From the NCBI GenBank assembly GCA_034231615.1, contig CM067298.1, positions 63,642,387 through 63,706,386 of the forward strand: a stretch of 64,000 bases of DNA, written 5' to 3'. A model generated the notes under the pieces. That model ran no database searches and was not told the origin of the DNA. It was given only the letters and a program-made list of their open reading frames with translations. Source of the stretch: Meghimatium bilineatum. Lineage: Eukaryota; Mollusca; Gastropoda; Stylommatophora; Philomycidae. A program made the position numbers and the translations under genes. Each line of letters opens with the position of its first letter. The stretch's first letter is position 1. Shown here in pieces: positions 8,761-62,985 of this stretch.

Positions 8761-8948
8761 TAGGTAGGTAGTTTGTTTTGCGTTCGCTCCATTGTAATCA
8801 GCACGGATATCTGTGCGATTTCCGCCGGGAGCGTGTTTACTTTGTGACACCGGTATGCGCATTTTAGGCCTAGCACATCCGATTTCGGCATGCCTTGACA
8901 ATTCGGGTGGACTACCCTAGCCTGTGACAGCCTCTTAGGTAGGTAGTT
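8761..8948 (-). mobile_element. R-element retroposon, 5'-truncated copy with 13-bp TSD
   Basis: The insert 8774-8935 lies between two copies of TAGGTAGGTAGTT (8761-8773 and 8936-8948). It is the 3' terminal 160 bp of the R-element described at 14.26 kb: TTTGTTTTGCGTTCGCTCC, then CACGGATATCTGTGCGATTT, then the GGCCTAGCACATCCGATTTC block. The sense strand is minus, so the A/C-rich tail lies on the left. It is inserted at the end of the LINE-C relic. Confidence 0.88.
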
Positions 8949-9575: not shown

Positions 9576-9675
9576 TGTTTTGTTGTTTTTCTACTTGCTC
9601 ATCACATTTACTGTTTTTCATGCCATGTTCCTCTTCGCTTTCGAAGGAGGAACACCATTATCATAATTTATATTT

Positions 9676-12600
9676 CCCCATCGAGGCCAGAACCTTGAAG
9701 TGGTGAAAGGGCTTAGTTCAGCCATCAGAGGCTGGAAACTAAGACTGGTCGGGCACTCCCACTCGAGCAGGACCATAGTCCGGCCCAAGTAAGCAGAGTG
9801 CTGAAGACGGAGGCAACCAGCCAAAAGGCGCACAGATAATCAGGTTGCCACGCATAAAACACAATGGAAACATGTCTTCATCTAATAAATGTTATGGTGC
9901 CTGCCCTGTGGCGGACGTTCAGGCAGGGACGGTGCCGGGCCCTATACCTCGAAAGGGCCCAACCTCAGTTACTGGAAGTCCTTCTCAATTGCCCCGAGGA
10001 GCCAGGAGGCAAGGGAATAGAGCTACTGGCCAAACAAACAAACGACCAATAAAAATAATGCACTGGAATGCTGAGGGTGTCAACAGTAAAAGAGATGGAT
10101 ACAGCAAAAAATTGGAACTTGAAAATGTCCTCAGTGAAGAACAAGTTAATATTTGCTGTATCCAAGAAACACACCTCAGCAGCGACATAGCCTTCAAAAT
10201 CAGAGGCTACCAGTGCTACCGATCTGACCGAAAAGACAGGCGAAAGGGTGGAATTCTGACACTAGTTAAAAACAATATCAGCGCATGTCAGCTGGAAGTA
10301 TACATGGACGGGGCAGAATACCAGATGCTCCACCTAAAAACAGACAGTGCAGAATTCCATCTCCTGAACTACTACTGCCCAAATGATAAACCATTGGCAC
10401 TAGACACAATTCCAGATAAAGAAAGGCTTATGGTGTGTGGTGACTTCAACAGCCACTCTCAGAGCTGGGGCTATGATCATATCGACAAGAGAGGTGAGGA
10501 ACTTGAGAGCTGGCAGGATGAAAATAATATCATTCTTATTAACCAGCCAGCTGACTCACCAACCTTCTACTCGAGAGCATGGCACACCACCTCTACACCA
10601 GACCTGGCATTCTACTCACCAGGCCTGGAATGGAACATCACACGTGTCGTTGGAAAGCAGCTTGGGGGTAGTGACCACAGACCAGTATTTCTGGAAATTC
10701 ACAATGAATATACCAAGGACAGCAGCACGCTCACTAGGTGGAACTATAAGAGGGCAGACTGGAAAATGTACCAGCATTTAACCAGTGTTCTAGCTAAGGA
10801 CATGAACTTGGACAAAGACATCAATAGAGCAGTGAGTGAATTTAATAGATGTATACTACATGCTGCTAGTAAAACCATACCCAGGGGGGCACGCAAAAAC
10901 TACAAACCCTACTGGAATGATGAACTGGAAAAGCTGCAAAATGAGATGGAAACATCTAGAAAGCAGGCTGAGAACAGACCTAGCCAAGAACATCACAACA
11001 AATATCAGCAAACAAAGGCTAAATTTCAAAGAGCCAAGTTACAAGCCAGACGGAACAGCTGGAAAGAAAAAACAGAGTCGCTGAACCTAGAAAGAGATAC
11101 TAGGAAATTATGGAAACTTGTAAAACAACTAAATGATGAAGGTACAGGGAGAAATACCAGGATCACGCTTTATAAAGATAGAAACATTTTAACAGGTAAA
11201 CATGCAGCTGATTACTTTGCAGATTCCTTTGCAGAAGACAATAACGTCAAAGTCAGCCCAGACAAACAACAGGAGGTTCGAGCGAACCAGCAAAACATTG
11301 GACAAGACGAACCTATACCTGAAGTCATGGAGGCACCAATCACAATGAGAGAACTGGAGCATGCAATATCCAAATTGAAAATGAAAAAGTCCCCTGTAGC
11401 TGATGGAGTGTCCAATGAAATGATTAGAAACCTGGGAATTGCAGCAAGAGCAAAGCTGCTGCAAATCTTTAACACAAGCTGGTCCACAGGTAATGTACCA
11501 CAGGCATGGAGAGAAGCAATAATGATACCTCTCCTCAAATCAGGAAAAGATGGCAACACAGTCTCCAACTACAGGCCCATCAGCCTCGCAAGCTGTCTAT
11601 GCAAAACAATGGAACGCATTATCAATCTTAGGATGCAGTGGTACCTTGAAAGTGAAAACCTTCTGGTATCACAGCAAGCAGGTTTCAGACAGTGCTACTC
11701 TACTGAAGATCAGGCAACCTACCTCTCCCAAGAGATTGAGGATGCCTTCCAAGAAAAGAAACTGGTACTAGCAGCATGGATAGACCTTAGGAAAGCATTT
11801 GATAAGGTCTGGAAAGAAGGGCTCCTAAAGAAATTGCGAAATTGCAGGGTTAGCTCAAGAATGTACAAATGGGTAAAAGCATACCTGCATAATAGAAGAG
11901 CCAGGGTACAATTAGATGGTCGCAAAAGCAAGAAAGTCCTACTGTGTCATGGAGTCCCCCAGGGAGGAGTCCTGTCACCCACACTTTTCTTGGTTTACAT
12001 CAATGACCTAGTTGCTGAACTACCACACGGGATCAAAGTGGCAATGTATGCTGACGACCTGGTGATCTGGTGCACGGAAGAACATGCGACAGTGGCCACT
12101 AAACAAATACAAAGAGCTATCGATGCCCTAACCTTATGGGCAAATAGATGGTGTGTCAGCATTAACACAGATAAGTGCAGCACTACACTCTTTACCCTCT
12201 CACCAAAACAAAAAGCCGGTCATATCAAGATAGACGGAGAGCTCTTGAAAGAAGACAAACAACCAACATACCTCGGAGTTACTTTTGATGATAAGCTGAC
12301 ATGGAAGCAGAACATAAACAAAGCAACAACAAAAGCCAGGAGGAAGTTAGCTATCCTGAGAAAACTAAGTGGAACCACATGGGGAGCCTGTGGGAATATA
12401 CTCAGTAAAGTTTACCAGCAAGGCATAAGACCACACCTGGAATATGGTTCAGCTGCGTGGTGTCCTGCATCAAACACCACATTACAAGATCTAGATAAAG
12501 TGCAAAACCAGGCACTTAGAATAATGTTGGGAGCAATGAAATCAACACCCATAGCAGAGATGCAGAAAATGGGAAGAATGCAAACACTTGGCGAACGCAG

Positions 12601-13746
12601 AGACACAAAAGTACTAATTCAAGCGGAAAAGTTTCAGTGTATGCCAAGTCATCCAATGAAGGAAAGATTCCAAAACCTAGCAATGGGGCGACTGAAAAGA
12701 AGCAGCTTTATCCATCAAGCTAAACGACTCCGTAGACAACTTACAGACCTACCTGAAGTTGACAGCCCCTTAAGGTCTGTACCAGAACAAACCCCATGGA
12801 GTGAAAGGCATGGAATGCCAATATACATTCAGACCCATGTGAAAAGAATACTAAGCGAGGACGAACAGAACAGTGTGCAGCGGAGGACAGTCACCCTCAG
12901 TTTCCTGGACGAGGAATATCCACAAGATATATGGGTCAGAGTATACACAGATGGGTCAGCACAGAATGCTGTGAGGAATGGAGGTGCAAGTGTATATATA
13001 GAATATCCACACAAGCCTAGAGATACAATCAGAACACCGACAGGAAAATTCTGCAATAATTATGATGCAGAAATCCAGGCAATTACTGTGGCAGCTAAAA
13101 AACTGCAGAACTCCAACTCTGACCTACAGTCAGTGGTATTCCTGACAGATGCAAGGTCAGTGCTTCAAGCTCTCCAGTCTGGAAAACTAACAGACTTGAA
13201 AAAACTACTTAGCGAATTGTCTTACCAGTATAGGGTAACCATGCAGTGGATACCCTCTCACTGTGGAATACCAGGAAATGAAAAAGCAGACCAACTGGCT
13301 ACGGAAGGTGCTGCCGAAGATCAACCAGATATACCAATCACCTACCATCAGAAAAAACAGATGATCAAGTCAATAAGAAAGCCACAAACACCAACACAAG
13401 ATGACTATCACATTATGAACAGATCAGAACAAGTTATAATTCTACGTCTCAGAACAGGACACAACCGACTCCGCAGTCACATGTATACAAAGTTCAAGAT
13501 TGGCAACACGGCCATGTGTACATGTGGACAGGCAGTACAGAGTGCCAAACATATACTTCAAGAGTGTTCTGAGCATGAAATGCTGAGGCAGACATATTGG
13601 CCAGAGGAAACAACACTGGAATCAAAGCTCTATGGGACACTGTATGAACTACAAAAGACAGTGAGTTTTATTAAGGAGACAGAATTGCAGATATAGACAT
13701 GTTTCAAGTGAACGAAAGAAGAAGAAGAATATATTGTTTATATTTG
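9676..13746 (+). mobile_element. LINE-A, full-length copy 1
   Basis: The element starts at CCCCATCGAGG (9677), the same 5' end as copy 2, and runs through a 5' leader of about 170 bp, a single long ORF and a very short 3' UTR that ends in GAACGAAA followed by (GAA)4 near 13730. Flanks share the perfect 9-mer TTTATATTT (9667-9675 and 13737-13745) within a longer imperfect match, so the target-site duplication is only approximate. There is no separate ORF1. The domain set EN-RT-RNase H places it near the I/Ingi/R1-like LINE groups. I cannot name the clade without a tree. Confidence 0.88.
9872..13696 (+). CDS. LINE-A polyprotein: APE endonuclease, reverse transcriptase, RNase H (copy 1)
   Basis: This protein would nick target DNA and reverse-transcribe its own RNA. 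The frame is open from 9845, but the codon there is TTG where copy 2 has ATG. The first in-frame ATG is 9872, and an out-of-frame ATG lies at 9864. Numbering from 9845: the endonuclease (about 70-285) shows HWNAEGVNS, IQETHLS, CGDFNSH and SDHRPVF. The RT (about 500-800) shows NYRPISL, AGFRQCYS, WIDLRKAFDKVW, GVPQGGVLSPTLF and MYADDLVIW. RNase H (about 1030-1145) keeps its acidic residues in YTDGS, DAEIQAI and LTDARSV, plus PSHCGIPGNEKAD. A C-x-C...H...C knuckle lies near 1223-1240. One oddity is SPVADG where the RT block normally reads SPGADG. Otherwise intact over more than 1270 codons. About 40 residues differ from copy 2, so the two are roughly 97% identical by eye. Confidence 0.92.
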   Translation: MSSSNKCYGACPVADVQAGTVPGPIPRKGPTSVTGSPSQLPRGARRQGNRATGQTNKRPIKIMHWNAEGVNSKRDGYSKKLELENVLSEEQVNICCIQETHLSSDIAFKIRGYQCYRSDRKDRRKGGILTLVKNNISACQLEVYMDGAEYQMLHLKTDSAEFHLLNYYCPNDKPLALDTIPDKERLMVCGDFNSHSQSWGYDHIDKRGEELESWQDENNIILINQPADSPTFYSRAWHTTSTPDLAFYSPGLEWNITRVVGKQLGGSDHRPVFLEIHNEYTKDSSTLTRWNYKRADWKMYQHLTSVLAKDMNLDKDINRAVSEFNRCILHAASKTIPRGARKNYKPYWNDELEKLQNEMETSRKQAENRPSQEHHNKYQQTKAKFQRAKLQARRNSWKEKTESLNLERDTRKLWKLVKQLNDEGTGRNTRITLYKDRNILTGKHAADYFADSFAEDNNVKVSPDKQQEVRANQQNIGQDEPIPEVMEAPITMRELEHAISKLKMKKSPVADGVSNEMIRNLGIAARAKLLQIFNTSWSTGNVPQAWREAIMIPLLKSGKDGNTVSNYRPISLASCLCKTMERIINLRMQWYLESENLLVSQQAGFRQCYSTEDQATYLSQEIEDAFQEKKLVLAAWIDLRKAFDKVWKEGLLKKLRNCRVSSRMYKWVKAYLHNRRARVQLDGRKSKKVLLCHGVPQGGVLSPTLFLVYINDLVAELPHGIKVAMYADDLVIWCTEEHATVATKQIQRAIDALTLWANRWCVSINTDKCSTTLFTLSPKQKAGHIKIDGELLKEDKQPTYLGVTFDDKLTWKQNINKATTKARRKLAILRKLSGTTWGACGNILSKVYQQGIRPHLEYGSAAWCPASNTTLQDLDKVQNQALRIMLGAMKSTPIAEMQKMGRMQTLGERRDTKVLIQAEKFQCMPSHPMKERFQNLAMGRLKRSSFIHQAKRLRRQLTDLPEVDSPLRSVPEQTPWSERHGMPIYIQTHVKRILSEDEQNSVQRRTVTLSFLDEEYPQDIWVRVYTDGSAQNAVRNGGASVYIEYPHKPRDTIRTPTGKFCNNYDAEIQAITVAAKKLQNSNSDLQSVVFLTDARSVLQALQSGKLTDLKKLLSELSYQYRVTMQWIPSHCGIPGNEKADQLATEGAAEDQPDIPITYHQKKQMIKSIRKPQTPTQDDYHIMNRSEQVIILRLRTGHNRLRSHMYTKFKIGNTAMCTCGQAVQSAKHILQECSEHEMLRQTYWPEETTLESKLYGTLYELQKTVSFIKETELQI

Positions 13747-14243: not shown

Positions 14244-15601
14244 CACAGACTTCTAAGTTTGTTTGTTTGTTTGTTTTTCGTTCGCTCCATTGTAACCATC
14301 ACGGATATCCGTGCGATTTCCGCCGGGAGCGTGATTACGTTGTGCCACCGTTATGCGCCTTGTAGGCCTAGCACATCCGATTTCGGCATGCCTTGACAAT
14401 TCGGGTGGGCTACCCTTAGCCTGTGACAGCCTCTATATCTGTCTCCAGGCACGCGTAGCGAAGACTCTTCGCCCAGACGATTTTCTTGCTCTCGTCTCAC
14501 TCGAACGAGGTGTTCCACTGTCTATGAACTTGCCTCGTGTAATTGGACGTGCTGTGCCTGTGCCCATTAGGTACTGAACCGTTTCTCATCCATGAGCCTG
14601 GTTCCTTAGGGGGAAGAACTCAACAGAGGAGTTGGACCTTGGCTCTTTCGCCCTCTTAGCCGAGGTGTCATTCACCGACATCGTGTACCCCTTGTCCAAG
14701 TTCGAGTCTCACACCACGCGTTTGAGAGCAAGGCGTTCTCGAGCTGAGCGTCCTTGTCCCAATAGCGCCTGAGCCCATCAGGTACTGAACCCTTTCTCTC
14801 TTCAAGTGTATTTCCGGTGTAGGAAAACCTGACAGTAGAGTTGGGCCAGGGCTAAATCGTTGTCCCTTCTGTGCCTGAGCGAATCGAGTACGGAACCCTT
14901 TCTCTCTGCAAGTTACTTCCGGTATAGGAAACCTTGACAGTAGAGTTGGGCCAGGACTGCCATCGTTGTCCCTTTCTTGCCTACACCCATCGGGTACAGA
15001 ACCCTTTCTCTTCGCGAGCATATTTCCGGTTTAGGAAGGCTCGACGTTAGAGTTGGGTTAGGTCTTTTGTTTTACCAAACGCCGATGGATGGGTCTGAGT
15101 CTCTGCCTGTTAGGAACTCTGGTGACTAGAAGCCCGTCTCGAGCAGACGGAGCTTGTAGTTCCCTTTCCTAGGGACTTTTCACTTTCTATTTGCAGTTCG
15201 CGCTGCCCTCTAGCGCTGTTCTGCCCTTTCATTGTACTCTGTATGAAACATATTTGTCTCTCGCCATGCATTTACCTTTACGTGCATTTTACATTGGCCG
15301 CCCCTCCAATGTTCGGACTGGACTGACTAGCTTCACTGTATGTCGACAGTGTCGCTATATGTGGTGATGCTGGTGGTGTCGGAGATATTGTCTGTCTCTT
15401 GTGCAGTCAAATATCTTTCCATCTGCTACCTCCACATTCTCGGACACGATCCCCAAAAGATTTGGCCAGAATCAGCACGAGCTGCTGTATTTCTGTTTCC
15501 AGGGTGCACCGCGTGGAGGTACATTTGGGATCTTGGTTATCTGCTAACCCTGGGTCCGCCTAGAGCAATGCGTTCCCTTTGCACCCCACAGACTTCTAAG
15601 T
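14244..15601 (-). mobile_element. R-element: full-length ~1.3-kb non-coding retroposon (copy 1)
   Basis: The insert 14259-15586 (1,328 bp) is flanked by a perfect 15-bp TSD, CACAGACTTCTAAGT, at 14244-14258 and 15587-15601. The sense strand is minus: its 5' end (GGGTGCAAAGGG...) is at 15586 and its 3' end is GGAGCGAACG followed by an (AAAC)n-like tail at 14259-14280. It is visibly more GC-rich than its surroundings. No long ORF is present, no RT, endonuclease or transposase motif is legible, and no tRNA-type A/B boxes were found. The copy at 48.5 kb starts at the same 5' base, so this is the full length and not a random truncation. It is probably mobilised in trans by a LINE. Identity unknown to me; it could be an unusually long SINE, a LINE-derived non-autonomous element or a retroposed long non-coding RNA. 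Confidence 0.85.
14570..15060 (-). repeat. ~106-bp subrepeats inside R-element copy 1
   Basis: The anchor GGTACTGAACC or a close variant occurs at about 14570, 14781, 14887 and 14993, so spacings are 211, 106 and 106 bp. Each is followed by a similar block: CCTTTCTCT, then TTCCGGTRTAGGAA, then AGAGTTGGGCCAGG. R-element copy 2 has one 106-bp unit fewer. Confidence 0.85.
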
Positions 15602-24685: not shown

Positions 24686-26222
24686 CCATCAAAAAGGTAG
24701 TTTCGAAGAAAATAACTTTCAATCATGTTATGAATTAGTAAACATACTGTAAAAAAACTGTCAAATACTGCATGTTTCCAGTTAAGGATGTACATGGAGG
24801 GATTTTGTAGTAAACAGATTGTGGGATCAAATTGATCAGTGACATACTCAATTTCACATAACGCGGTATAAAAACGTCAACTTTCTACACAACAATATGT
24901 ATTTGAAAAAAAGAACTGAAATATCGTATAGGTCACAGGTTTTCAGTACATGGGATCGTGACACCTAATGGAATCTGAAAGTTGTTTGTTTTTTTAGGCG
25001 TCGATAGTTAAAACAGTAAACTAAAAGTAAACTGATGTTAATATAATTTTTATTCGGGTTTACTTCCTTTTTTTTCTACAAATCAAGTTGGAGTGGATAA
25101 TCAACAATTCCACATTTTAAAACCAAAACAATAAACACGTTACATTTAAGAATAACACGATTCGTGATCTTTTATTATGAATTAGCATCACTGCACAATG
25201 TTCATTCCCACAAGTACAGTGCTTGTCATCAAGTGAGCTATTTAAGATTGTATAAGATCCGTGTATGTCAGGTGTTGATTATGAGTTATTCAGGGCTTTC
25301 CAGTGTGGAAGAGCTTCCTGCTTCTCCCATGGTTTCCACCACTATATGAACATCTGCATTATCTCTTTCAGCATCATTTCCAATGTTTTGCAATGTAACC
25401 ATGATTGTGCTAATTAACTTTATATCTCGTCACTTCACTGTGTTGTCCAATGCAGCTTTCCGTCAAAATACCAGCTCCATCCTTGCTTAAAAACTGCAGA
25501 CCTGAACAATAGATCCATATGGTTATTTTGGACGTTGTTGAAAAGAATGTTAACAAATTTACGTTTATGTTCATTTCAATCGTGCTCATCATACTCTAAG
25601 AGTCTGAGAGAATCAATGTTAGTTGTGGTTGCAAATCAGCAACGCGAGAGCCACTGTGACAGCCTCTATCTCTAATATTATGATTTATGTTGTTATTGGA
25701 TCTATCTATTGTAATGTCTACTCGCGCTATTAAGCATCGTCGACGGAAGTTTATGTTGTCTGTCTTTGGCCTTCTGTGTCACACTGACCAAGGTCAGCCT
25801 GTGTCTCTTTAAGGTATCTTTGATTGCATTTGGACAGTAGTGAATATCTCTTCAACTTTCCTACCATTTTGTTAGGAATAAAATGTCCACCTGTTTATTG
25901 CTCTTATTACTGTATAGGCAATCGTATCTGTATGTCTGAGCACTGCTGCATGAGTTCTTGTTTTATTTCCTCTATCCCAGTGACAACATAAATGAGACAT
26001 TCTCTTCCTAGCTGTATTACAAAATGTACTACGTGCTGTCTCCTTGTCTTTACCTTTACCTACTCACATTCCCTTCCTACTTCAAACAGATCGCTCATTC
26101 TGAATAGTGCCATCCAAGAACTTAATTGTATTATACGCTATCTGTGGGGGAGTGGGAGTGTCCTGCCCTCAGACATGTGCATGCAATCGCACACAAAGTG
26201 GTTTGTTGAGGTTCTCCTAACG
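24686..26222. other. Unassigned DNA
   Basis: No gene recognised. CTGTGACAGCCTCTAT near 25656 matches a word in the R-element (about 14420) and could be a tiny remnant or chance. Confidence 0.35.
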
Positions 26223-26420
26223 CAACAAGAAGCGGGACTCAAGATGTGGTGCTTTTCTGCTATGGCAACAAGAAGCGGGACTCAAGATGTGGTGCTTTTC
26301 TGCTATGGCAACAAGAAGCGGGACTCAAGATGTGGTGCTTTTCTGCCATGGCAACAAGAAGCGAGACTCAAGATGCGGTGCTTTTCTGCTACATGAACAG
26401 GAAACGGGACTCAAAACTTA
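26223..26420. repeat. 43-bp minisatellite, ~4.5 units
   Basis: Units begin CAACAAGAAGCGGGACTCAA at 26223, 26266, 26309 and 26352, with a diverged partial unit at about 26395. The period is 43 bp, so any reading frame shifts each unit and the overlapping open frames are not a repeat protein. Confidence 0.93.
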
Positions 26421-27528
26421 GAAATCTGAACTTTCATTGAAGAATAAATTTATATGAAGTGAATCATAGAAACATAATTGCGATGTACTTTAAATTCATA
26501 AGTAATGCGAAAACATGACTAATGGGGAGAGACAAGGGACGTAACAAATGTTACCCAACTGGACGTTTTGGATCCATGAATAGCAGCATAGTTTGACACA
26601 AGAGTCATGGCCACTACGAACTATGCAAGAACTAAAAGAGAACTAAAACTTCTTTAAGAGATTTATTATATGAATTAACAAACTTGAGAGATAACATTTA
26701 TAGACATTAAGTGACATCACTACAAAGGAGCCCAACTAAGGATCGCTCGCGAAAAGCATTAATTGCCTATGTCAAGGGAAATAGGACTCATATCAGTCTT
26801 GATACAAAGGAATTCATTATATGCTAACGTCATATAATAAGAACATCTCTATACATAGTCGTTGTGGGCCAACAAAAATACCAGAAGCAGTGCCCTGCAT
26901 ATGTTTTGCAAAATCCGAGAATGAAATCCCCCACTTTTTTGAATTATCTAATGAATTATCTTGACTACGCGTAATAATTTTGCGTTATTATCACTACTAA
27001 CTATGGTTGTTGAGCAGCGGGAACATGCTAATGATGTTATACGAATTGTGGGATGAATTATGGCAGTTCACGGATGTGATGGTCAACATGTCATTGGACT
27101 CAGCGATAACAAATGGATGCGTGATTTAGCTTCAAGTTCGAGAATATCAAGAGCATCTCTGAAATGGATATCAAAATGTGAAGCCCAACCAGATTGTCGA
27201 TTGGAGATTGAAGATAAATTAAGATTGACGAATGTGCAACTTCAAAGAAATAACACGGTGGAAGTACCAGCTCTGAGAAGACAAGCGTCTTCTATAACGT
27301 GTCAATGTCTGGTAATGTGTGAAACCAAAAGAGACATTTAATGAAAGGTTCACTGACGTAAAGAGTTATCAAACAGAACTAATATTCTTATAACAACAAC
27401 AAACACTGGAAAGATCTCCCAAGAGATATAGAAACTCGCGATGTTGAGGATGTTTTGATCATGGAAGAACGCCAGTTTACACAAAAATGAGAAATGTGGC
27501 TGAGGGGAAAAACATTCTTAGAAAGGCA
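26421..27528. other. Unassigned DNA with one 93-codon open frame
   Basis: The frame 27060-27341 (+) starts with ATG and encodes 93 residues, including a WISKCEAQPDCRLEIEDKLRL stretch. It has no low complexity, and its composition is more protein-like than the flanks. I do not recognise it. It could be a fragment of a retrotransposon protein or an exon. Confidence 0.3.
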
Positions 27529-37465: not shown

Positions 37466-37671
37466 TATCAGTCGTGGGTGGTAATAACTGCGCAATATCA
37501 AGAGAGATTTCCCAGTAATATCAGAACAAATTATTCCCATTGCCTCTAGCGAATAACTAGTACCAGCAGCATGTTACGGAGTGTTTATATTTGAAGTATA
37601 CACATTTCATCTGTACTGTCGTTAAGCGTTTCTTAAATATGTCCATACATTTTCCTTGTTTACTTAGAGTT

Positions 37672-39980
37672 ATTGTCTTTTATATACATGGAAAAGCCCT
37701 GGAGACAGAAAGAGGAACCAAATAGATTACATTATGATTAACTATAGATTTAGAAATAGTGTCAAAAACATCAAAACATACCCAGGTGCAGATATCAACT
37801 CTGACCATAATCCAGTGCTGTGCAAAATAAATGTCAAACTTAAAAAGATAGTAAATAGAGGAGTCCACGAACCACAGATAGACGCATCAGCACTAAAACA
37901 ACAAGACATACAACAAAAATACCTTGTAGATGTAAGGAATAGATATGAACATCTAATGATAGAGTGCATGGAACAATACAGAAGGGAAAATCCAGAAGAG
38001 AAAATAGACAATAAATGGGAAAGCCTAAAGAAAAGTATTCAAATATCAAGTAAAAATTTACCAACAAGAAATACCAGGAACAAACAAACATGGATGGCAG
38101 AGGAAATATTAGAGAAAATGACAGAAAGAAAGAAAGCTAAACATACACCAAAATACTCAAGTATAGACAAGGAGATACGTAACATGTGCAGAACAGCGAA
38201 AAATCAATGGCTAGAAACAAAATGCAGTGAAATAGAAGAGATGTCCATACAACAGAAGACAAAAGTAATGCATAAGGAGATAAGGCTGATCACAAATAAG
38301 AAAAATCATATAAATGGGGGTGGCTGCATTAAAGATAAAAATGGTAAAATAATATTTGATAAAACAGAAGCGCTCACAGGATGGGCAGATTATGTAACAG
38401 AACTGTTTGACGACCAACGGAACAAAAAACTAACAATACACAACAATGATGGACCAGCAATACTGAAATCAGAAGTAGAACATGCAATATATTCAATAAA
38501 ATGTGGAAAAGCTGCAGGCTCTGACAACATAACAGCTGACATAATAAAAACTCTAAATGAATTTGGTGTAGATACTATCACAGAAATTTGCAATGACATA
38601 TACGAAACAGGCCATATACCTAAAGACCTAACATCATCAATATTCATACTACTACCTAAGAAGCCCAGGGCTGTGGAATGTACAGAATATAGAACAATAA
38701 GTCTAATGAGCCATCTAACTAAAATACTTCTCAAGATAATACATGAAAGAATTAAGAACAAGATAGACATGGAGGTCGGTGAAGAACAATTCGGTTTTAG
38801 GAAAAACAAAGGAACCAGAGAAGCTATACTGAGTACCCGGCTAGTGATAGATAAATATATAGAAGTCCAAAAAAGTATCTATATTTGCTTCATAGACTAC
38901 AGCAAGGCCTTTGACAGAGTCCAACACGAAACATTAATCAAATGTCTTCAAAAAATAGGCATAGATGGAAAAGACATCAGGCTGATTAGAAATATATATT
39001 GGGAACAAACTGCATCAATAAGGTGTGAAAACAGCTACTCTCCATACATAGAAATAAGAACAGGGGTAAGACAAGGATGCATTTTATCACCAAGCCTATT
39101 TAGTATCTACACAGAGAATATCTTTAAAAATATAGAAGAAATACCAGGACTCAAGATCAATGGGAAAATAATAAACAACATTAGATATGCAGATGACACT
39201 GTTCTTTTAGCAGTAAGTGAACATGAACTACAAAGACTAATAGATCAAGTCAATAAATCAAGTAACGAATATGGACTGGATATAAACATTAAAAAAACAA
39301 AAACCATGATAATCAACAAAGACACAGAAGAACAGGAGGTAAACATAAACATACAGGGAGAGAAACTGCAACAAGTAAAACAGTATCAATATCTTGGACA
39401 CATAGTCACAAATGATGGCAGATGTGAAACAGAAGTTAAAAGGAGAATAGTAATGGCTAAAAGTACCTTCAATGACATGAGGAAATTATTAATATCTAAA
39501 CAAATTACAAACAAGTTAAAAATGAGAATTATAAAATGCTACATCTATTACATATTAATGTATGGCTCAGAAACATGGACACTAAATAAACAATTAGAAG
39601 ACAAAATTGATGCCTTTGAGATGTGGGTATATAGAAGAATAGGGAGAACATCATGGAAAGAGAAGAAAACAAATAAAGAGGTGCTAAAATAAAACTTAAT
39701 ATGAAGAAAGAACTACTACGAGAAATAATGATCAGGCAAATAAAATACTTTGGACACATTGAAAGACATGACACCATATTGAAGACCTTACTTGAGGGTA
39801 AAGTCAAAGGGAAGCGAGCAAGAGGTAGGCAGAGACACAAGTGGGAGAGTAACATTACACGATGGACAGGTTACAGTCTAGCAGTGTGCACCACCAAGAC
39901 AAGAGACAGGAGATGTTGGAGATACGTTGCAGCCAACCTTCGTTGCGGAGACGGCACTTGATGATGATGATTGTATTTTA
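37672..39980 (+). mobile_element. LINE-B (RTE-like), 5'-truncated, with 11-bp TSD
   Basis: The insert 37683-39969 lies between ATTGTCTTTTA (37672-37682) and ATTGTATTTTA (39970-39980), one mismatch. The 3' end is a (TGA)n tail. The 5' end falls inside the endonuclease domain, so the copy was truncated at integration. A second, shorter copy lies at 62.3 kb on minus. Confidence 0.88.
37683..39961 (+). pseudogene. LINE-B endonuclease (partial) and reverse transcriptase
   Basis: The frame begins in the endonuclease C-terminus (NQIDYIMINYRFRNS, then GADINSDHNPVLCKI, about 37716-37830) and stays open to 39692. The RT follows: CGKAAGSDNITADIIK (about 38505-38550), LLPKKPRAVECTEYRTISLM (about 38650), EQFGFRKNKGT (about 38785), ICFIDYSKAFDRVQ (about 38885), GVRQGCILSPSLFSIY (about 39065) and NIRYADDTVLL (about 39180). 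YGSETWTLN and MWVYRRIGRTSW come next. The frame then breaks at an A-run near 39686-39694 and continues in the -1 frame as MKKELLREIMIRQIKYFGHI, then GRQRHKWESNITRWTG, to 39961. The catalytic YADD is intact, but the missing endonuclease N-terminus and the frameshift make it non-autonomous. The start at 37734 is simply the first ATG and has no biological meaning. Confidence 0.9.
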
Positions 39981-42772: not shown

Positions 42773-43168
42773 ATGATATTTACTAAGAGATTGTTTCCAC
42801 CCAATCTGATTTCTGTAAATTCCATAATATCCATAGCCATGCTGCGTGTAATCACTGTGAAATATCCACTTTCCTCTGCAATAGTTTTCCATACAGATTT
42901 GTCATTTATCACTAGTATGCTTAGGGAAGATGTGGTCAGTATCACATCCGATGTGTTTACTTTCCCAGAAGACATGTACCAACTTCTTAAATCAATAATG
43001 TCTAATCATTTCAGAAAAACTGATATCCATCAGGCGAAACTTGAAAGTAGGAAAATGAAGATTTGTTATTCATTGAAAACACACAGTATAACACACAAAC
43101 ATCGACGTTTCACGGATATTCACAATACAAAACAACGTGAAAGAATGACACTATTGACGTTCACATGA
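42773..43168 (+). other. Unrecognised 131-codon open frame overlapping a foldback
   Basis: The frame starts with ATG at 42773 and encodes 131 residues. The last 30 or so lie in the left arm of the foldback at 43.07 kb. No motif is recognised and its amino-acid content follows the AT-rich base composition. Probably chance. Confidence 0.15.
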
Positions 43169-43525
43169 CAGAGCTAAATATAGATATATAAATTTAACAC
43201 TGTCATGAGAACGTCAAGTGTTTTTCTAGTCGTTGTTTTGTGTTGTGAATTTACGCGATAGAGGCTTTGTGGTTGAAACATTGACGTGTCTGCGTTATTG
43301 TGTATGTTTCTAGTGATTAACAAAATGTCATTACCATGTTCCAAGTAGCGCAGCACTGTCATATGAACGTTAATATTGTCACTTTTATTCGTTGTTTTTT
43401 GTTGTGAATATACTTGATAAAGGCCTTTTGGTCAAAGAACCGATTTGTGTGTGTCATCGGGTTTAGAAAGTGTGTGTGTTTTCAACGATTAACAACGCTT
43501 CATTACCATGTTCTAAGTTGGGCCA
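43070..43525. repeat. Foldback repeat with duplicated right arm
   Basis: The left arm (about 43075-43175: ACATCGACGTTTCAC...TTGACGTTCACATGACAGAG) is the reverse complement of a right arm (about 43195-43350: CTGTCATGAGAACGTCAA...GGTTGAAACATTGACG). A second right-arm-like unit follows at about 43354-43520, with CTTGATAAAGGCCTTTTGG and CATTACCATGTTCTAAGT. The order is therefore left-right-right. It shares words with the decayed foldback at 33.7 kb. Confidence 0.75.
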
Positions 43526-44287: not shown

Positions 44288-47200
44288 AATGTTCGGTTTC
44301 TTCTTCTTCTTCTTTCGTTCACTTGAAACATGTCTATATCTGTAATTCTGTCTCCTTAATAAAACTCACTGTCTTTTGTAGTTCATACAGTGTCCCATAG
44401 AGTTTTGATTCCAGTGTTGTTTCCTCTGGCCAATATGTCTGCCTCAGCGTTTCATGCTCAGAACACTCTTGAAGTATATATTTGGCACTCTGTGCTGCCT
44501 GTCCACATGTACACATGGCTGTGTTGCCAATCTTGAACTTTGTATACATGTGACTGCGGAGTCGGTTGTGTCCTGTTCTGAGACGTAGAATTATAACTTG
44601 TTCTGGTCTGTTCATAATATGATAGTCATCTTGTGTTGGTGTTTGTGGCTTTCTTATTGACTTGATCATCTGTTTTTTCTGATGGTAGGTGATTGGTATA
44701 TCTGGTTGGTCTTCGGCAGCACCTTCCTTAGCCAGTTGGTCTGCTTTTTCATTTCCTGGTATTCCACAGTGAGAGGGTATCCACTGCATGGTTACCCTAT
44801 ACCGGTAAGACAATTCGCTAAGTAGTTTTTTCAAGTCTGTTAGTTTTCCAGACTGGAGAGCTTGAAGCACTGACCTTGCATCTGTCAGGAATACCACAGG
44901 CTGTAGGTCAGAGTTGGAGTTCAGCAGTTTTTTAGCTGCCACACTAATTGCCTGGATTTCTGCATCATAATTATTGCAGAATTTTCCTGTCGGTGTTCTG
45001 ATTGTATCTCTAGGCTTGTGTGGATATTCTATATATACACCTGCACCTCCATTCCTCACGGCATTCTGTGCTGACCCATCTGTGTATACTCTGACCCATA
45101 TATCTTGTGGATATTCCTCATCCAGGAAACTGAGGGTGACTGTCCTTCGCTGCACACTGTTCTGTTCGTCCTCGCTTAGTATTCCTTTCACATGGGTCTG
45201 AATGTATATTGGCATTCCATGGCTTTCACTCCACGGGGTTTGTTCTGGTACAGGCCTTAAGGGGCTGTCAACTTCAGGTAGGTCTGTAAGTTGTCTGCGG
45301 AGTCGTTTAGCTTGATGGATAAAGCTGCTTCTTTTCAGTCGTCCCATTGCTAGATTTTGGAATCTCTCCTTCATTGGATGACTTGGCATACAATGAAACT
45401 TTTCTGCCTGAATTAGTACTTTTGTGTCTCTGCGTTCGCCAAGTGTTTGCATTCTTCCCATTTTCTGCATCTCTGCTATGGGTGTTGATTTCATTGCTCC
45501 CAACATTATTCTAAGTGCCTGGTTTTGCACTTTATCTAGATCTTGTAATGTGGTGTTTGATGCAGGACACCATGCTGCTGAACCATATTCCAGGTGTGGT
45601 CTTATGCCTTGCTGGTAAACTTTACTGAGTATATTCCCACTGGCTCCCCATGTGGTTCCACTTAGTTTTCTCAGGATAGCTAACTTCCTCCTGGCTTTTG
45701 TTGTTGCTTTGTTTATGTGCTGCTTCCATGTCAGTTTATCATCAAAAGTAACTCCGAGGTATGTGGGTTGTTTGTCTTCTTTCAAGAGCTCTCCATCTAT
45801 TTTAATATGACCGGCTTTTTGTTTTGGTGAGAGGGTAAAAAGTGTAGTGCTGCACTTATCTGTGTTAATGCTGATGCACCATCTATTAGCCCATAAGGTT
45901 AGGGCATCGATAGCTCTTTGAATTTGTTTAGTGGCCACTGTCGCATGTTCTTCTGTGCACCAGATCACCAGGTCGTCAGCATACATTGCCACTTTGATCC
46001 CGTGTGGTAGTTCAGCAACTAGGTCATTGATGTAAACCAAGAAAAGTGTGGGCAACAGGACTCCTCCCTGGGGGACTCCATGACGCAGTAGAACTTTCTT
46101 GCTCTTGCGACCATCTAATTGTACCCTGGCTCTTCTATTATGCAGGTATGTTTTTACCCATTTGTACATTCTTGAGGTAACCCTGCAATTTCGCAATTTC
46201 TTTAGGAGCCCTTCTTTCCAGACCTTATCAAATGCTTTCCTGAGGTCTATCCATGCTGCTAGTACCAGTTTCTTTTCTTGGAAGGCATCCTCAATCTCTT
46301 GGGAGAGGTAGGTTGCCTGATCTTCAGTAGAGTAGCACTGTCTGAAACCTGCTTGCTGTGATACCAGAAGGTTTTCACTTTCAAGGTACCACTGCATCCT
46401 AAGATTGATAATGCGTTCCATTGTTTTGCATAGACAGCTTGTGAGGCTGATAGGCCTGTAGTTGGAGACTGTGTTGCCATCTTTTCCTGATTTGAGGAGT
46501 GGTATCATTATTGCTTCTCTCCACGCCTGTGGTACATTACCCGTGGACCAGCTTGTGTTAAAGATCTGCAGTAGCTTTGCTCTTGCTGCAATTCCCAGGT
46601 TTCTAATCATTTCATTGGACACTCCATCAGCTCCAGGGGACTTTTTCATTTTCAATTTGGATATTGCATGCTCCAGTTCTCTCATTGTGATTGGTGCCTC
46701 CATGACTTCAGGTATAGGTTCGCCTTGTCCAATGTTTTGCTGGTTCTCTCGAACCTCCTGTTGTTTGTCTGGGCTGACTTTGATGTTATTGTCTTCTGCA
46801 AAGGAATCTGCAAAGTAATCAGCTGCATGTTTACCTGTTAAAATGTCTCTATCTTTATAAAGTGTGATCCTGGTATTTCTCCCTGTACCTTCATCATTTA
46901 GTTGTTTTACAAGTTTCCATAATTTCCTAGTATCTCTTTCTAGGTTCAGCGACTCTGTTTTTTCTTTCCAGCTACTCCGTCTGGCTTGTAACTTGGCTCT
47001 TTGAAATTTAGCCTTTGTTTGCTGATATTTGTTGTGATGTTCTTGGCTAGGTCTGTTCTCAGCCTGCTGTCTAGATGTTTCCATCTCATTTTGCAGCTTT
47101 TCCAGTTCATCATTCCAGTAGGGTTTGTAGTTTTTGCGTGCTCCCCTGGATATGGTTTTACTAGCAGCATGTAGTATACATTTATTAAATTCACTCACTG

Positions 47201-48366
47201 CTCTATTGATGTCTTTGTCCAAGTTCATGTCCTTAGCTAGAACACTAGTTAAATGCTGGTACATTTTCCAGTCTGCCCTCTTATAGTTCCACCTAGTGAG
47301 CGTGCTGCTGTCCTTGGTAAATTCATTGTGGATTTCCAGAAATACTGGTCTGTGGTCACTACCCCCAAGCTGCTTTCCAACGACACGTGTGATGTTCCAT
47401 TCCAGGCCTGGTGAGTGGAATGCCAGATCTGGTGTAGAGGTGGTGTGCCATACTCTCGAGTAGAAGGTTGGTGAGTCAGCTGGCTGGTTAATAAGGATGA
47501 GATTATTTTCATCCTGCCAGCTCTCAAGTTCCTCACCTCTCTTGTCGATATGATCGTAGCCCCAGCTCTGAGAGTGGCTGTTGAAGTCACCACACACCAT
47601 AAGTCTCTCTTTGTCTGGAATTGTGTCTAGTGCCAATGGTTTATCATTTGGGCAGTAGTAGTTCAGGAGATGGAATTCTGCACTGTCTGTTTTTAGGTGG
47701 AGCATCTGGTATTCTGCCCCTTCCATATATACTTCCAGCTGACATGCACTGATATTGTTTTTAACAAGTGTCAGAATTCCACCCTTTCGCCTGTCCTTTC
47801 GGTCACATCGGTAGCACTGGTAGCCTCTGATTTTGAAGGCTATGTCGCTGCTGAGGTGTGTTTCTTGGATACAGCATATGTTAACTTGTTCTTCACTGAG
47901 GACATTTTCAAGTTCCAATTTTTTGCTGTATCCATCTCTTTTACTGTTGACACCCTCAGCATTCCAGTGCATTATTTTTATTGGTCGTTTGTTTGTTTGG
48001 CCAGTAGCTCTATTCCCTTGCCTCCTGGCTCCTCGGGGCAATTGAGAAGGACTTCCAGTAACTGAGGTTGGGCCCTTTCGAGGTATAGGGCCCGGCACCG
48101 TCCCTGCCTGAACGTCCGCCACAGGGCAGGCACCATAACTATTTATAGATGTAGACATGTTTCCATTGTGTTTTGTGCGTGGCATCCTGATTATCTGTGC
48201 GCCTTTTGGCTGGATGCCTCCGTCTTCAGCACTCTGCTTACTAGGGCAGGACTATGGTCCTGCTCGAGTGGGACTGCCCGACCAGTCTTAGTTTCCAGCC
48301 CCTGATGGCTGAACTAAGCCCCATCACCTCTGCACGGTGCTGGTCTCGATGGAGAATGTTCGGTTT
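44288..48366 (-). mobile_element. LINE-A, full-length copy 2, with 12-bp TSD
   Basis: The insert 44300-48354 is flanked by a perfect 12-bp repeat, AATGTTCGGTTT, at 44288-44299 and 48355-48366. On minus it starts CTCCATCGAG at 48354, has a leader of about 170 bp, one ORF, a 3' UTR under 25 bp and a (GAA)5 tail. The 5' end matches that of copy 1, so both are full length. Confidence 0.95.
44334..48185 (-). CDS. LINE-A polyprotein: APE endonuclease, reverse transcriptase, RNase H (copy 2)
   Basis: An intact 1283-codon frame starting at a real ATG (48185), the likely native start for the family. The function is self-mobilisation: nicking, target-primed reverse transcription and RNA removal. The N-terminal 60 residues are Gly/Pro/Arg-rich with no gag-like finger. 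The endonuclease has HWNAEGVNS, IQETHLS, CGDFNSHSQSWGY and SDHRP. The RT has SPGADG, NYRPISL, AGFRQCYS, WIDLRKAFDKVW and MYADDLVIW. RNase H has YTDGSAQNA, DAEIQAI, LTDARSV and PSHCGIPGNEKAD. Two changes stand out: GGVLLPT where copy 1 and most RTs have GGVLSPT, and AKYILQEC in the C-terminal C-x-C...H...C knuckle, where copy 1 keeps the His. It may therefore be weakened despite the open frame. About 40 residues differ from copy 1. Confidence 0.95.
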   Translation of the reverse strand: MPRTKHNGNMSTSINSYGACPVADVQAGTVPGPIPRKGPTSVTGSPSQLPRGARRQGNRATGQTNKRPIKIMHWNAEGVNSKRDGYSKKLELENVLSEEQVNICCIQETHLSSDIAFKIRGYQCYRCDRKDRRKGGILTLVKNNISACQLEVYMEGAEYQMLHLKTDSAEFHLLNYYCPNDKPLALDTIPDKERLMVCGDFNSHSQSWGYDHIDKRGEELESWQDENNLILINQPADSPTFYSRVWHTTSTPDLAFHSPGLEWNITRVVGKQLGGSDHRPVFLEIHNEFTKDSSTLTRWNYKRADWKMYQHLTSVLAKDMNLDKDINRAVSEFNKCILHAASKTISRGARKNYKPYWNDELEKLQNEMETSRQQAENRPSQEHHNKYQQTKAKFQRAKLQARRSSWKEKTESLNLERDTRKLWKLVKQLNDEGTGRNTRITLYKDRDILTGKHAADYFADSFAEDNNIKVSPDKQQEVRENQQNIGQGEPIPEVMEAPITMRELEHAISKLKMKKSPGADGVSNEMIRNLGIAARAKLLQIFNTSWSTGNVPQAWREAIMIPLLKSGKDGNTVSNYRPISLTSCLCKTMERIINLRMQWYLESENLLVSQQAGFRQCYSTEDQATYLSQEIEDAFQEKKLVLAAWIDLRKAFDKVWKEGLLKKLRNCRVTSRMYKWVKTYLHNRRARVQLDGRKSKKVLLRHGVPQGGVLLPTLFLVYINDLVAELPHGIKVAMYADDLVIWCTEEHATVATKQIQRAIDALTLWANRWCISINTDKCSTTLFTLSPKQKAGHIKIDGELLKEDKQPTYLGVTFDDKLTWKQHINKATTKARRKLAILRKLSGTTWGASGNILSKVYQQGIRPHLEYGSAAWCPASNTTLQDLDKVQNQALRIMLGAMKSTPIAEMQKMGRMQTLGERRDTKVLIQAEKFHCMPSHPMKERFQNLAMGRLKRSSFIHQAKRLRRQLTDLPEVDSPLRPVPEQTPWSESHGMPIYIQTHVKGILSEDEQNSVQRRTVTLSFLDEEYPQDIWVRVYTDGSAQNAVRNGGAGVYIEYPHKPRDTIRTPTGKFCNNYDAEIQAISVAAKKLLNSNSDLQPVVFLTDARSVLQALQSGKLTDLKKLLSELSYRYRVTMQWIPSHCGIPGNEKADQLAKEGAAEDQPDIPITYHQKKQMIKSIRKPQTPTQDDYHIMNRPEQVIILRLRTGHNRLRSHMYTKFKIGNTAMCTCGQAAQSAKYILQECSEHETLRQTYWPEETTLESKLYGTLYELQKTVSFIKETELQI

Positions 48367-48410: not shown

Positions 48411-49749
<1,339 letters not shown>

Positions 49750-56879: not shown

Positions 56880-59800
56880 ATTTATTCATTTTCCTTTAGC
56901 GCTGAAGTTTGCGCATATGGCAGAGGTCAAATATTTCCAATTAAGTCTGTTCAAGCTATTCTGTGCAGTTTGTGAAAAGTATAAGTTTTGTTTGTTTTAA
57001 TTTCTCAAGGTATTGTTATTCTGAGTGTTTCCTTTGGTCTACCATTGGCTCATCTGCCAGTTGGTCTCCATGCAAGAGATGGTGTATTCTAGTTTTATTT
57101 CAGTATATGATTTATCCGATGTAGGACCAACTGCGTTTTCTAATAACATCTGTCATGTAGTTTTGATATGTCTCTTCTCCAATTTTTTCGTTCGATTTAA
57201 ATTCGCTCCAGTGGGAGTTAGGTAACCTACGAGGGCATTTGCTTTTTAAACTCAATAGTTTCTTTTCTGAAGATAAAGAACTTTTCCAGCTCTCACATCT
57301 ATATGCCAGCACTGGAATATTGCAGAAATTAAATAGGCGCACTTTCGTGAGTGTGCAGATTGACTTTTACCTTCAGATATTATACTATCTATTAGCCTAT
57401 TAAAGGCACTTGATCATAATGCAAGGCGAGTTATAATTTCTGCCAGGACATCCCTGTCGAGTGCTAATTTGATTCCTAGATTAGAAAAATTGTGTACCTT
57501 TTTAAGTTGTTGTCCATTTAGATTAATTGCGTTAAATGAACCGGGAAAGTCCATAATTTTGGTTTTTGGTGGAGTGATTTGAAGACCTATGTGTCCTGCG
57601 ATGAATTTAATATATCAGTTTGTGTATGTACATCTTGATAGTTTTCACTCAATAATGCAATAACGTTGGCAAAATCTAGGTCTTCTAGTCATGTTTTATT
57701 TATCCATTCAATTACTAAATGTTGTTGGTTGTACTTTTTCTCATTACCCAATCAATTGCGATATTGAACAGCAAAAGTTTCATAGGGCAGACTTGTTTAA
57801 CACTAGTAATCACAGGTAACCAGTCGGAAATGCCGTTTTCTGTTCTAACGCAGCATTTTGAGTTTTTATTGAATGCATTTATCGTATTTATGTGTTTGAT
57901 GTGAAATCCATATATTTTTCTTAAATTCCCCAAAGTGATGTTTGATGTATGTTGTCGAAGCCTTATTTAAAATTAACAAAGTTTATTAGGTTTGCTCTAA
58001 ATTCTACACATTCTTCAATTATTGTTCTAAGAGTGAATATATGGTCTAGGCATGAGCGACCTGGTCTAAATCCTGCTGTTCTTTTCTGTCTTTTGTCTAG
58101 GTATGTTTTTACTCTTGTGAACATCATATTACAAAGTATTTTACCAGGTACAGATAGCAGTGTAATTCCCCTTCAGTTATCACAGTCTGTTAGGTCTCTT
58201 TTTTGGGATAGTTTGCTAATGATACCATTTTCCATTGTTGGGGTGGACATTCTTTTTCCCCAGATCGTGTTGAAAATATCTAATATAAAGGTGAAGGTAT
58301 TGTCATTTGCTGCTTTTAACATTTCACTTGTGATGTCTTCTTGACCTGCTGCTTTATTGTTTTTCTATTTCTTAATGGCTTGGTTTACATCCTTAATGGT
58401 GAAATTTTCTGTCGAAGCTTCTAGTGCTGGCATTGTCTCCACTTCCTCTAAATTAGGAGCAGCTTGGGGGCATGGTCTGTTAAGAAGATGTTGGAAAAGC
58501 TCGGCCTATCTTTGATTTTGTTTTTCAGTTGTTGTTAGGACTTTGCCATTTGTGTCTTTAAAGTGGGCGTTTGGGATAGTGGCTGGTTTCACAGTCGCTT
58601 GGTTATGTGGTGGAGTATTTGTTGCTGTTGAGTTTTGATGCTGATTCAACTTCTAGTGCTAAGTTATTTATAAAAGTATATTTGTCTTTCCTAGCGCTTG
58701 TTTTACCTTCTTTGTCTTCTTCTGGGTTCGCTCTCTTATAACCACATCGAATAAGTCGTTTAATTTCCGCCTGGGAGCGTGAAGTAAGTTGTACTGCAAG
58801 TTCCACAGTTGGATTGCGTTCTTTCTGCCTCGGTTGGTTCACTTTTTGATCGGGACTTCCGATGCCTAGCACATCTGTTATCGTCATGCTTTTACTTCGG
58901 GTAGTATGCTTCCTTAGCCAGGGACAGCCTGCCTATTTGTCGACTGGCACGCGGGTGTATAATGACACTTCGCCAATACGATTGTGGTTCACGTCTATCT
59001 CGCACGAGGTGTACAACCGTCAGTGCACTTGCCTCGTGTAATTAGACGTACTGTACCATCGGGTACTGAACCTTTTCTCCTCCCCGAGCCTAGTTCCGGT
59101 GAAGGAAGAACTCGGAAGACGAGTTGGACTCGGGCTCTTTCACCTTCTCTAGTGGGGGTGTTGTTCACCGACACCGTGAACCCCTCGTCCAAGTCCGAGT
59201 TTCACCCCGCTTTTGGGAGCAAGGTATATTCTCGAGCTGAACGACCTTGTCCCATTTGTGCCTAGCTCATCGGGTACTGAACCATTTCTCTTTGCCAGCA
59301 TGTTTCCACTTCTTTGTCTAAATGTGCGTATGTGAGTTGTTTTGTTCCTCGTCTTGAGGGTTTTTGCAGCAAGTATTTTTATGCTTCATCAGTTTGAGGT
59401 CTTGGATTTTTGGCCAAGTTTTCTCGCTTAGCCATTTCTTCTTATTGTTTTGCACGAGTCCGGCTGTATCCAAAGCAGCATTTATTGTAGTATTTCTAAA
59501 ATCCTCCCATTATTTTTATATGGATGTTATGGGATTTACTAGTTCTGATGGTTTCTCTAAGGCTGTGTATTGGTTTTTATTTTGATGTTGCACTCTTCTT
59601 GTAAATCGCTTTCTAGTAGACGTTTTGTATCAATTTTCCTGTTAGATGTTCTTTTGATATTTTTTAACTTTGAGTTTTAGTTTAGCCATGCAGAGCTAAT
59701 GATCACATCCGGTATCTGCTCCTCTAAAAGTTCTTACGTCCTCTACAGCAGAGCAAAATATTTTTATTAATACAAAAATGTTTTATCTGGTTTTTAGTGA

Positions 59801-61184: not shown

Positions 61185-61333
61185 CAGTATCTTCTTATGC
61201 CGAAATCGGATGTGCTAGGCCTACAAGGCGCATAACGGTGGCACAACGTAATCACTCTCCCGGCGGAAATCGCACGGATATCCGTGATGGTTACAATGGA
61301 GCGAACGAAAAACAAACAAACAGTATCTTCTTA
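61185..61333 (+). mobile_element. R-element, 5'-truncated copy with 13-bp TSD
   Basis: The insert 61198-61320 lies between CAGTATCTTCTTA at 61185-61197 and 61321-61333. It is the last 123 bp of the R sense strand: TGCCGAAATCGGATGTGC to GGAGCGAACGAAAAACAAAC. It is the only copy in the window with its sense strand on +, and is very close in sequence to the copy at 14.3 kb. Confidence 0.92.
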
Positions 61334-62290: not shown

Positions 62291-62985
62291 AATGACTCAT
62301 CATCATCATTAAGTGCCGTCTCCGCAACGAAGGTTGGCTGCAACGTATCTCCAACATCTCCTGTCTCTTGTCTAGGTGGTGCACTCTGCTAGACTGTAAC
62401 TTATCCATCGTGTGATGTTACTCTCCCACGTGTATCTCTACCTACCTCTTGCTCGCGTCTCTTTGACTTTACCCTCAAGTAAGGACTTCAATAAGGTGGT
62501 TTGTCTTTTAATGTGTCCAAAGTATTTTATTTGCCTGATCATTATTTCTCGTAGTAGTTCTTTCTTCATATTAAGTTTTATTTTAGCTACTCTTTATTTG
62601 TTTTCTTCTCTTTCCGTGATGTTTTCCCTATTCTTCTATATACCCACATCTCAAAGGCATCAATTTTGTCTTCTAATTGTTTATTTAGTGTCCATGTTTC
62701 TGAGTGCCATACATTAATATGGAATAGATGTAGCATTTTATAATTCTCATTTTTAACTTGTTTGTAATTTGTTTAGATGTAACTATTTTCCTCATGTCGT
62801 TGAATGTACTTATAGCCATTCCGGTTCTCCTTTTAACTTCTGTTTCACATCTGCCATCATTTGTTACTATGTGTCCAAGATATTGATACTGTTTTACTTG
62901 TTGTAGTTTCTCTCTCTGTATGTTTACGTTTACCTCCTGTTCTTCTGTGTCTTTGCTGATTATCATGGTTTTTGTTTACTAATGC
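62291..62985 (-). pseudogene. LINE-B 3' fragment, second copy
   Basis: On minus, 62966-62690 reads MIISKDTEEQEVNVNIQREK, then QYQYLGHIVTNDGRCETEVK, RRTGMAISTFNDMR, then KLKMRIIKCYIYSILMYGTQ. It then continues in broken frames through the VYRRIG region to a NLRCGDGT-like end and a (GAT)n tail at about 62294-62306. It aligns with 39.3-39.97 kb. The register break at the A-run (rc of about 62583-62592) is at the same place and of the same length as in the 37.7-kb copy. 5'-truncated. Confidence 0.88.

Follow-up and report, generated by a model that had tools for sequence, protein, structure and literature searches.

A noncoding retroposon family of Meghimatium bilineatum with a predicted hepatitis delta virus-like ribozyme at its 5′ end

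A stretch of 64,000 nucleotides (nt) from the gastropod Meghimatium bilineatum (assembly GCA_034231615.1, contig CM067298.1, positions 63,642,387 to 63,706,386 of the forward strand), analysed at its whole length and hereafter called the window, holds five copies of a retroposon family designated R. Two of them, R14 and R48, are complete, and the first 140 nt of R fit the fold of a hepatitis delta virus (HDV)-like ribozyme whose predicted cleavage falls exactly at the 5′ end of the element. From the anatomy of the copies, this predicted fold and the tails of R and of long interspersed nuclear elements (LINEs) in the same genome, we consider it highly probable that R elements are LINE-type retroposons, noncoding, non-autonomous and about 1.3 kb long, which carry a self-cleaving HDV-like ribozyme at the 5′ end and are moved by LINE enzymes.

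Copies of R in the window and in the genome

The copy reported in a preliminary description of this DNA was used as the blastn query with the window as subject, target-site duplications (TSDs) were read by eye, and all five copies listed there were recovered. R14 (14259..15587, minus strand) was matched at 14259-15586; its RNA starts at 15587 with GGGGUGCAAAGG and ends with ...GGAGCGAACG followed by AAAAAC(AAAC)n at 14259, and a perfect TSD, ACAGACTTCTAAGT, is found at 14245-14258 and 15588-15601. R48 (48522..49738, minus strand) was matched at 48522-49737 in two pieces of 91-93% identity, has its 5′ base at 49738, and is flanked by an imperfect TSD. According to the alignment, R48 is shorter than R14 by about one unit of the internal tandem repeat that occupies 14767..15057 of R14 (106-bp unit, 2.7 copies). 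The other copies are truncated at the 5′ end and have perfect TSDs: 8771..8935 (minus strand, 93% identity, TSD TAGGTAGGTAG), 61197..61322 (plus strand, 99% identity, TSD AGTATCTTCTTA), and 58718..59307 (minus strand, matched at 58864-59307 with 75% identity, TSD CTTCTTTGTCT). The two complete copies with the same 5′ base, the three truncated copies, and the four perfect TSDs and one imperfect TSD agree with what had been read by eye from the sequence; the common 3′ end also stands for all five, but the copy at 58718, a member of an older subfamily, has a tail of the AGA type.

The G+C content of the R copy is 51%, and it is thus richer in G+C than its surroundings, as had been stated, most 2-kb bins of the window having 32-40%. 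The longest stop-to-stop frame in R spans 120 codons, and comparison of R with two LINE proteins gave no convincing similarity (best tblastn E value, 0.34). Neither a tRNA nor an Rfam match at the gathering threshold was found in the window. The characterisation of R as an element without coding capacity or a tRNA-type promoter is therefore retained.

The assembly (1,612,235,226 bases in 32 contigs) was then searched with R, which yielded 5,075 first-look candidates, and the best 40 of these, including one window copy, were scored and fetched. All 40 were near-complete matches with 97-100% identity; since scoring was limited to the best matches, complete copies are over-represented in this set. 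A 26-base sequence of the R 5′ end, with C or T allowed at one position, had 7,490 matches in the genome, and the reversed control had 0. The start GGGGTGCAAAGG (GGGGTGC) was present in 40 of the 40 fetched copies, and hence the clustering of 5′ ends at a single position, which the preliminary description had proposed as a check for a full-length unit, was observed in this set of best-scoring, mostly complete copies.

The 40 copies correspond to 38 distinct insertions, since L025, L026 and L029 share one TSD and the upstream flank. A TSD, mostly of 11-14 bp, was called by script in 37 of the 38 distinct insertions (none in L045), and in 31 of these 37 it directly abuts the first G of the element. 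When read by eye, the TSD also abuts the element in L047, where the script had chosen a longer tandem match, and in L039, where the doubtful TSD called by script falls within the tail and a 12-bp TSD with one mismatch was read instead; 1-3 extra bases lie between TSD and element in L013, L030, L040 and L043. The nick in the 37 called rows resembles a cut between TT and A or C, with T at position -2 in 27 of 37, T or C at position -1 in 35 of 37, and A or C as the first TSD base in 35 of 37. R therefore shows the TSDs, the repeated 3′ tail and the 5′ truncations that are hallmarks of target-primed reverse transcription (TPRT), and together with the common 5′ base these bear out the earlier proposal that a defined noncoding RNA, about 1.3 kb long, is retroposed in the manner of LINEs. 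The flanks of the fetched loci contained one further R copy (in L061), which is too few to estimate truncation.

Predicted ribozyme at the 5′ end of R

In R14 the predicted HDV-like ribozyme covers 15448..15587 on the minus strand, as do all of its parts given here, and cleavage is predicted just before base 15587. Helix P1 is formed by its 5′ strand, GGGGUGC (15581..15587), and by GCACCCU at 15501-15507, and its first pair is G.U; P1 of the HDV ribozyme likewise starts with a G.U pair. The 3′ strand of P1 follows directly behind P3, and a junction, J1/2, of about 48 nt separates P1 from P2. The P3/L3 hairpin, ACC-UCCACGC-GGU (15508..15520), is followed by P1, and the CC of L3 is able to pair with GG at 15499-15500 (P1.1). 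The P4 hairpin (15467..15495) is followed by J4/2, CCAA at 15462-15465, which includes the candidate catalytic C; the J4/2 motif of HDV-like ribozymes is CNRA. The 5′ strand of P2 (15524..15532) pairs with 15448-15457 in nine pairs with one bulge. The fold of R thus comprises a P1 of about 7 bp at the first base, P3/L3, P1.1, P4, J4/2 and a crossing P2, and the same ribozyme is predicted at the 5′ end of R48 (5′ base, 49738). A ribozyme at the exact 5′ end would explain why the 5′ base is constant, with no promoter required at that position. The interpretation in the preliminary description, retroposition of a defined noncoding RNA, is kept in this respect, but it had overlooked the predicted ribozyme.

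The fold was searched for with a loose and a strict descriptor, both of which match R14 at exactly 15587. The loose descriptor gave 83 starts in the window, both strands counted (5.8-7.2e-4 per base), and the controls gave 5.5e-4 per base for the shuffled window and 4.4e-5 for the shuffled 5′ part of the element. Three of its matches are exact 5′ bases of elements: 15587 (R14), 49738 (R48) and 48354 (a LINE designated LINE B, described below). The strict descriptor matched the window at 15587 and 49738 only, gave 0 matches in random sequence (3 Mb of window composition and 3 Mb of element composition), and gave 48 matches in the fetched loci, all at GGGG starts. P1, P3, the CC of L3 and the GG were intact in 39 of the 40 young copies.

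The older subfamily provided a comparison within the same genome. The copy at 58718, used as query, gave 7,428 first-look candidates, the best 40 of which were scored, and 29 further loci (L050-L078) were used. These are 82-85% identical to the copy at 58718 and, in the longer aligned pieces, roughly 75-85% identical to R; R position 1-6 is reached by 22 of the 29, and an exact TSD of at least 9 bp was found by script in 10 of these 22 5′-complete copies. The majority base of the old copies agrees with R at 137 of 145 positions in the ribozyme stretch and at 920 of 1,079 in the rest of the element (Fisher p 0.0018). Among 66 helix and core positions, 1 differs (binomial p 3e-4, taking the rate found outside the ribozyme stretch), and this change, from A-U to G-U in P4, keeps the pair.

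Several observations weigh against a ribozyme at this site. In a relaxed Rfam scan the drz-agam-1 model was matched below its gathering threshold of 37 bits, at 15452-15542 in R14 (20.7 bits) and at 49603-49693 in R48 (25.7 bits), this model pairing P2, P3 and P4 and not scoring the pairing of P1. One old copy had weak Rfam matches of 15.6 and 12.5 bits, a scan of 20 of the 22 5′-complete old loci gave no Rfam match at the gathering threshold, and no Rfam ribozyme was matched at the 5′ end of LINE B even at the relaxed threshold. The strict descriptor was composed after R had been seen, from general features of HDV-like ribozymes. The P1/P3/L3/GG core is kept in only 3 of the 22 old copies; R positions 151-225, which lie beyond the ribozyme, are equally conserved between the subfamilies (70 of 75), and the difference between core and non-core positions within the 145-nt stretch was not significant (p 0.07). 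Folding restricted to nested pairs gave a different structure of no unusual stability (z -0.87). Pair counts in an alignment that drew on the two window copies, 13 of the 40 young copies and 22 old copies (36 distinct rows, one genome) revealed no covariation beyond shuffles, and the 94% of paired cells in this alignment, as compared with 28-50% when the structure was slid along it, is unsurprising, since the structure had itself been derived from one member of the family. Separately, the opposite strand matched vault RNA at 15.3 bits (gathering threshold, 34), and this match was rejected.

These results bear on another explanation, in which R is an ordinary long short interspersed nuclear element (SINE) or another retroposon transcribed by RNA polymerase II or III, its 5′ base is the transcription start site of an internal promoter, and the ribozyme-like fold is an accident or a relic. 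Precise 5′ ends are also produced by RNA polymerase III initiation, three stretches of R (positions 797, 950 and 1008) agree with a B-box-like pattern when one mismatch is allowed, and the subthreshold Rfam scores of R and of the old copy, with none at the 5′ end of LINE B, are in keeping with it. Nevertheless we judge it improbable: R is about 1.3 kb long, no tRNA was found and the A-box pattern tried had no match in R, the descriptors fall exactly on the 5′ base (a chance of about 6e-4 per base for the loose one, and 0 in 6 Mb of random sequence for the strict one), and the two subfamilies diverge less at the helix and core positions than in the rest of R. A tRNA scan, Rfam at the gathering threshold and the A-box pattern revealed no tRNA-, 7SL- or 5S-derived head with polymerase III boxes, and the usual definition of a SINE does not fit R. 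R may have an additional internal promoter.

Tails, candidate partner LINEs and other features

The tails of R differ between the subfamilies. All 40 fetched young copies have tails that open with A5-6CAAA, most of which are (AAAC)n. Among the 29 old loci, the script located the 3′ end in 20; by eye, a GAA/AAG repeat comes next in 16 of these 20, the remaining 4 have less clear tails, and (AAAC)n occurs in 0 of the 20.

Tails of both types are also carried by LINEs. LINE B (44301..48354, minus strand) has an open reading frame (ORF) of 1305 aa, a (GAA)n tail, the TSD AAACCGAACATT and the loose-descriptor match at its 5′ base, 48354, where the fold is presumably similar to the Pr77 ribozyme of trypanosomatids. 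LINE A (9674..13729, plus strand) is 97% identical to LINE B, contains endonuclease, reverse transcriptase and RNase H domains according to a domain scan, and has no match to the loose descriptor at its 5′ end; the tail of LINE A/B is GTGAACGAAAGAAGAAG. Ten genome copies of LINE A/B were sampled, of which 9 start with CTCCATC by script and the tenth, which has a nearby base change, by eye, and TSDs were called by script in 7 of the 10. The CTCCATC start coincides with the first base of the loose-descriptor match of LINE B.

For a survey of further LINEs, 20 loci were hand-picked among 150 RNase H matches listed, and the stretch downstream of each was fetched. A LINE with an (AAAC)n tail was found at 7 of the 20 loci (L099-L102, L113, L116 and L117), a LINE with a CGCAGAAGAAG tail at 7 (L103-L107, L112 and L118), and neither tail type at 6. 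The (AAAC)n-tailed LINE family has ORFs of up to 1,280 codons; its fetched 5′ ends, read by eye, were not uniform and showed no HDV-like fold, and the strict descriptor, applied to the fetched loci including L119-L122 (L144-L146 not among them), matched GGGG starts only. Two side observations were made in the course of this survey. At L108, which belongs to another RNase H group than the AAAC-tailed LINE, a CAAACAAACAAA run lies about 1 kb downstream, and a second GAA-tailed LINE (L123/L125) opens, from the first base on, with a hairpin of the form CCTGG...CCAGG.

The RTE-like LINE at 37668-39971 was rejected as a partner of R, its tail being a GAT/TGA repeat. R would rather be served by LINEs that recognise tails such as its own. 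Because LINE families with each of the two tails are present in the genome, a change of LINE partner by way of the tail, from (GAA)n in most old copies to (AAAC)n in the young subfamily, is suggested, and we give such a switch about an even chance. That R has nothing but the tail in common with the AAAC-tailed LINE weighs against the proposed reading of R. The ribozyme reading could also be right with GAA-tailed LINEs mobilising R throughout, AAAC being a drifted tail and no switch having taken place. R and LINE A/B are alike in TSD lengths and, by eye, in nick sites, and simple tails can drift; on the other hand, the young tails open with the same A5-6CAAA in 40 of 40 fetched copies and mostly go on as (AAAC)n, and a LINE family with long ORFs has exactly this tail. 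We regard uninterrupted service by GAA-tailed LINEs as a serious possibility, though a somewhat doubtful one.

The LINE comparisons also bear on whether R could come from a longer coding LINE of the host genome, either as its 3′ part or as an internally deleted form. The match between R tails and LINE tails would fit such an origin, as would the HDV-like fold with which LINE B too starts by the loose descriptor. However, the start base is the same in 40 of 40 fetched copies, with TSDs mostly abutting it, and the body of R, compared with LINE B, the RTE-like LINE, and the fetched end parts of the AAAC- and GAA-tailed LINEs, gave only tail-type repeats and short matches with E values of at least 0.3. 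An origin of R as a LINE fragment is thus very unlikely, and the treatment of R in the preliminary description as a unit of its own, rather than as the 3′ part of a longer LINE, holds for the LINEs compared.

Among the other features of the window, which also contains TA microsatellites, the LINE that we take to be RTE-like lies at 37668-39971 (plus strand) and 62299-62977 (minus strand) and has a TGA/GAT-type tail; a genome search with it gave 5,922 first-look candidates, of which the best 40 were scored, all with at least 98% identity. A near-palindromic 66-bp hairpin at 43153-43218, which matched mir-8 on both strands below the gathering threshold, is probably a short inverted-repeat transposon. 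A tandem repeat with a 43-bp unit is located at 26169-26426. Elsewhere in the genome (G000:C2:121989805-121990428), a nuclear copy of part of the mitochondrial COX1 was noted; it has stops when translated with table 2 but is free of them with tables 5 and 9, which points to an invertebrate host.

Proposed mechanism and related elements

On the basis of the fold and the junctions described above, the following course of retroposition is proposed. The RNA of R would open with an HDV-like ribozyme cutting directly ahead of the first base, and this cleavage would free the precise 5′ end of R from any longer transcript running through it; R copies inside transcribed DNA would then need no promoter of their own. 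The short repeated 3′ tail would let the endonuclease and reverse transcriptase of a LINE start TPRT at a nick of the TT/A type, and TPRT would yield the observed TSDs, mostly of 11-14 bp, as well as the 5′-truncated copies.

Elements of a similar kind are on record. According to part of the account in PMC4035085, NARTc, RIME and SIDER of trypanosomatids (L1Tc/ingi clade, Pr77 ribozyme) are non-autonomous or degenerate retroposons that depend on LINEs and carry 5′ HDV-like ribozymes, several of which cleave. R resembles them, as far as they are described there, in being a non-autonomous LINE-type retroposon with a predicted 5′ HDV-like ribozyme, and differs in that its body matches no LINE compared, in its 106-bp tandem repeat, in its occurrence in an animal genome and in its J1/2 of about 48 nt. 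In Drosophila, the R2 SIDEs and R2/R1 hybrids require nothing beyond the R2 ribozyme and a 3′ end suitable for binding by a LINE, and the hybrid SIDEs apparently use the machinery of another LINE, as stated in the relevant part of PMC3414825. R is like the R2 SIDEs described there in joining a 5′ HDV-like ribozyme, predicted in the case of R, to a LINE-usable 3′ end; SIDEs, however, occupy fixed sites in ribosomal DNA and are built from R2/R1 sequence, whereas R is dispersed, its 5′ end having 7,490 matches in the genome, and is not built from the LINEs compared.

With regard to the ribozyme itself, an HDV-like ribozyme is on record in the abalone Haliotis discus in which 5 nt replace P4, and the R2 ribozyme of the silkmoth has an exceptionally long J1/2 (both from the portion of PMC3774820 that treats them); R, unlike the ribozyme of Haliotis discus as given there, has a P4. 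R agrees with the consensus of the drz-Agam-1 model (RF01787) in P3/L3 (ACCUCC.CG.GGU) and in the GG behind P1, and departs from it in its score below gathering, its long J1/2 and its P1, which lies outside the scoring of the model. SVA and LAVA are also noncoding and LINE-dependent, and are not known to contain a ribozyme; their 5′ region is Alu-like, whereas that of R is a predicted ribozyme. In apes, these are composite retroposons with a central variable number tandem repeat, according to the part of PMC4432496 that introduces them.

No description of the R family was found in the papers searched on HDV-like ribozymes in connection with non-autonomous elements, SINEs, molluscs or snails, among which few subscription papers were covered. 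As far as these papers go, the word undescribed in the preliminary description may be kept for the family but not for the kind, which is already known from NARTc, RIME and SIDER and from the R2 SIDEs. It seems to us an evenly balanced question whether R represents an animal retroposon class between SINEs and SIDEs, which would be abundant, dispersed, noncoding and not derived from LINEs, launched by a ribozyme without a promoter, and able to switch between LINEs by swapping tails, its founding module being the ribozyme and not a LINE.

In annotation, caution is advised with 'unknown' 1-kb repeats that have precise 5′ ends, which may hide ribozymes that score below the Rfam thresholds. The R family, with its two tails beside LINEs that bear each of them, would serve as a natural experiment on which features of a passenger RNA a LINE requires. 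If the proposed reading of R is true, a self-cleaving ribozyme and a simple tail would suffice for a very successful animal retroposon, with 7,490 5′-end matches in one genome, and this success would have been reached without a recognisable polymerase III promoter and without a LINE-derived body.
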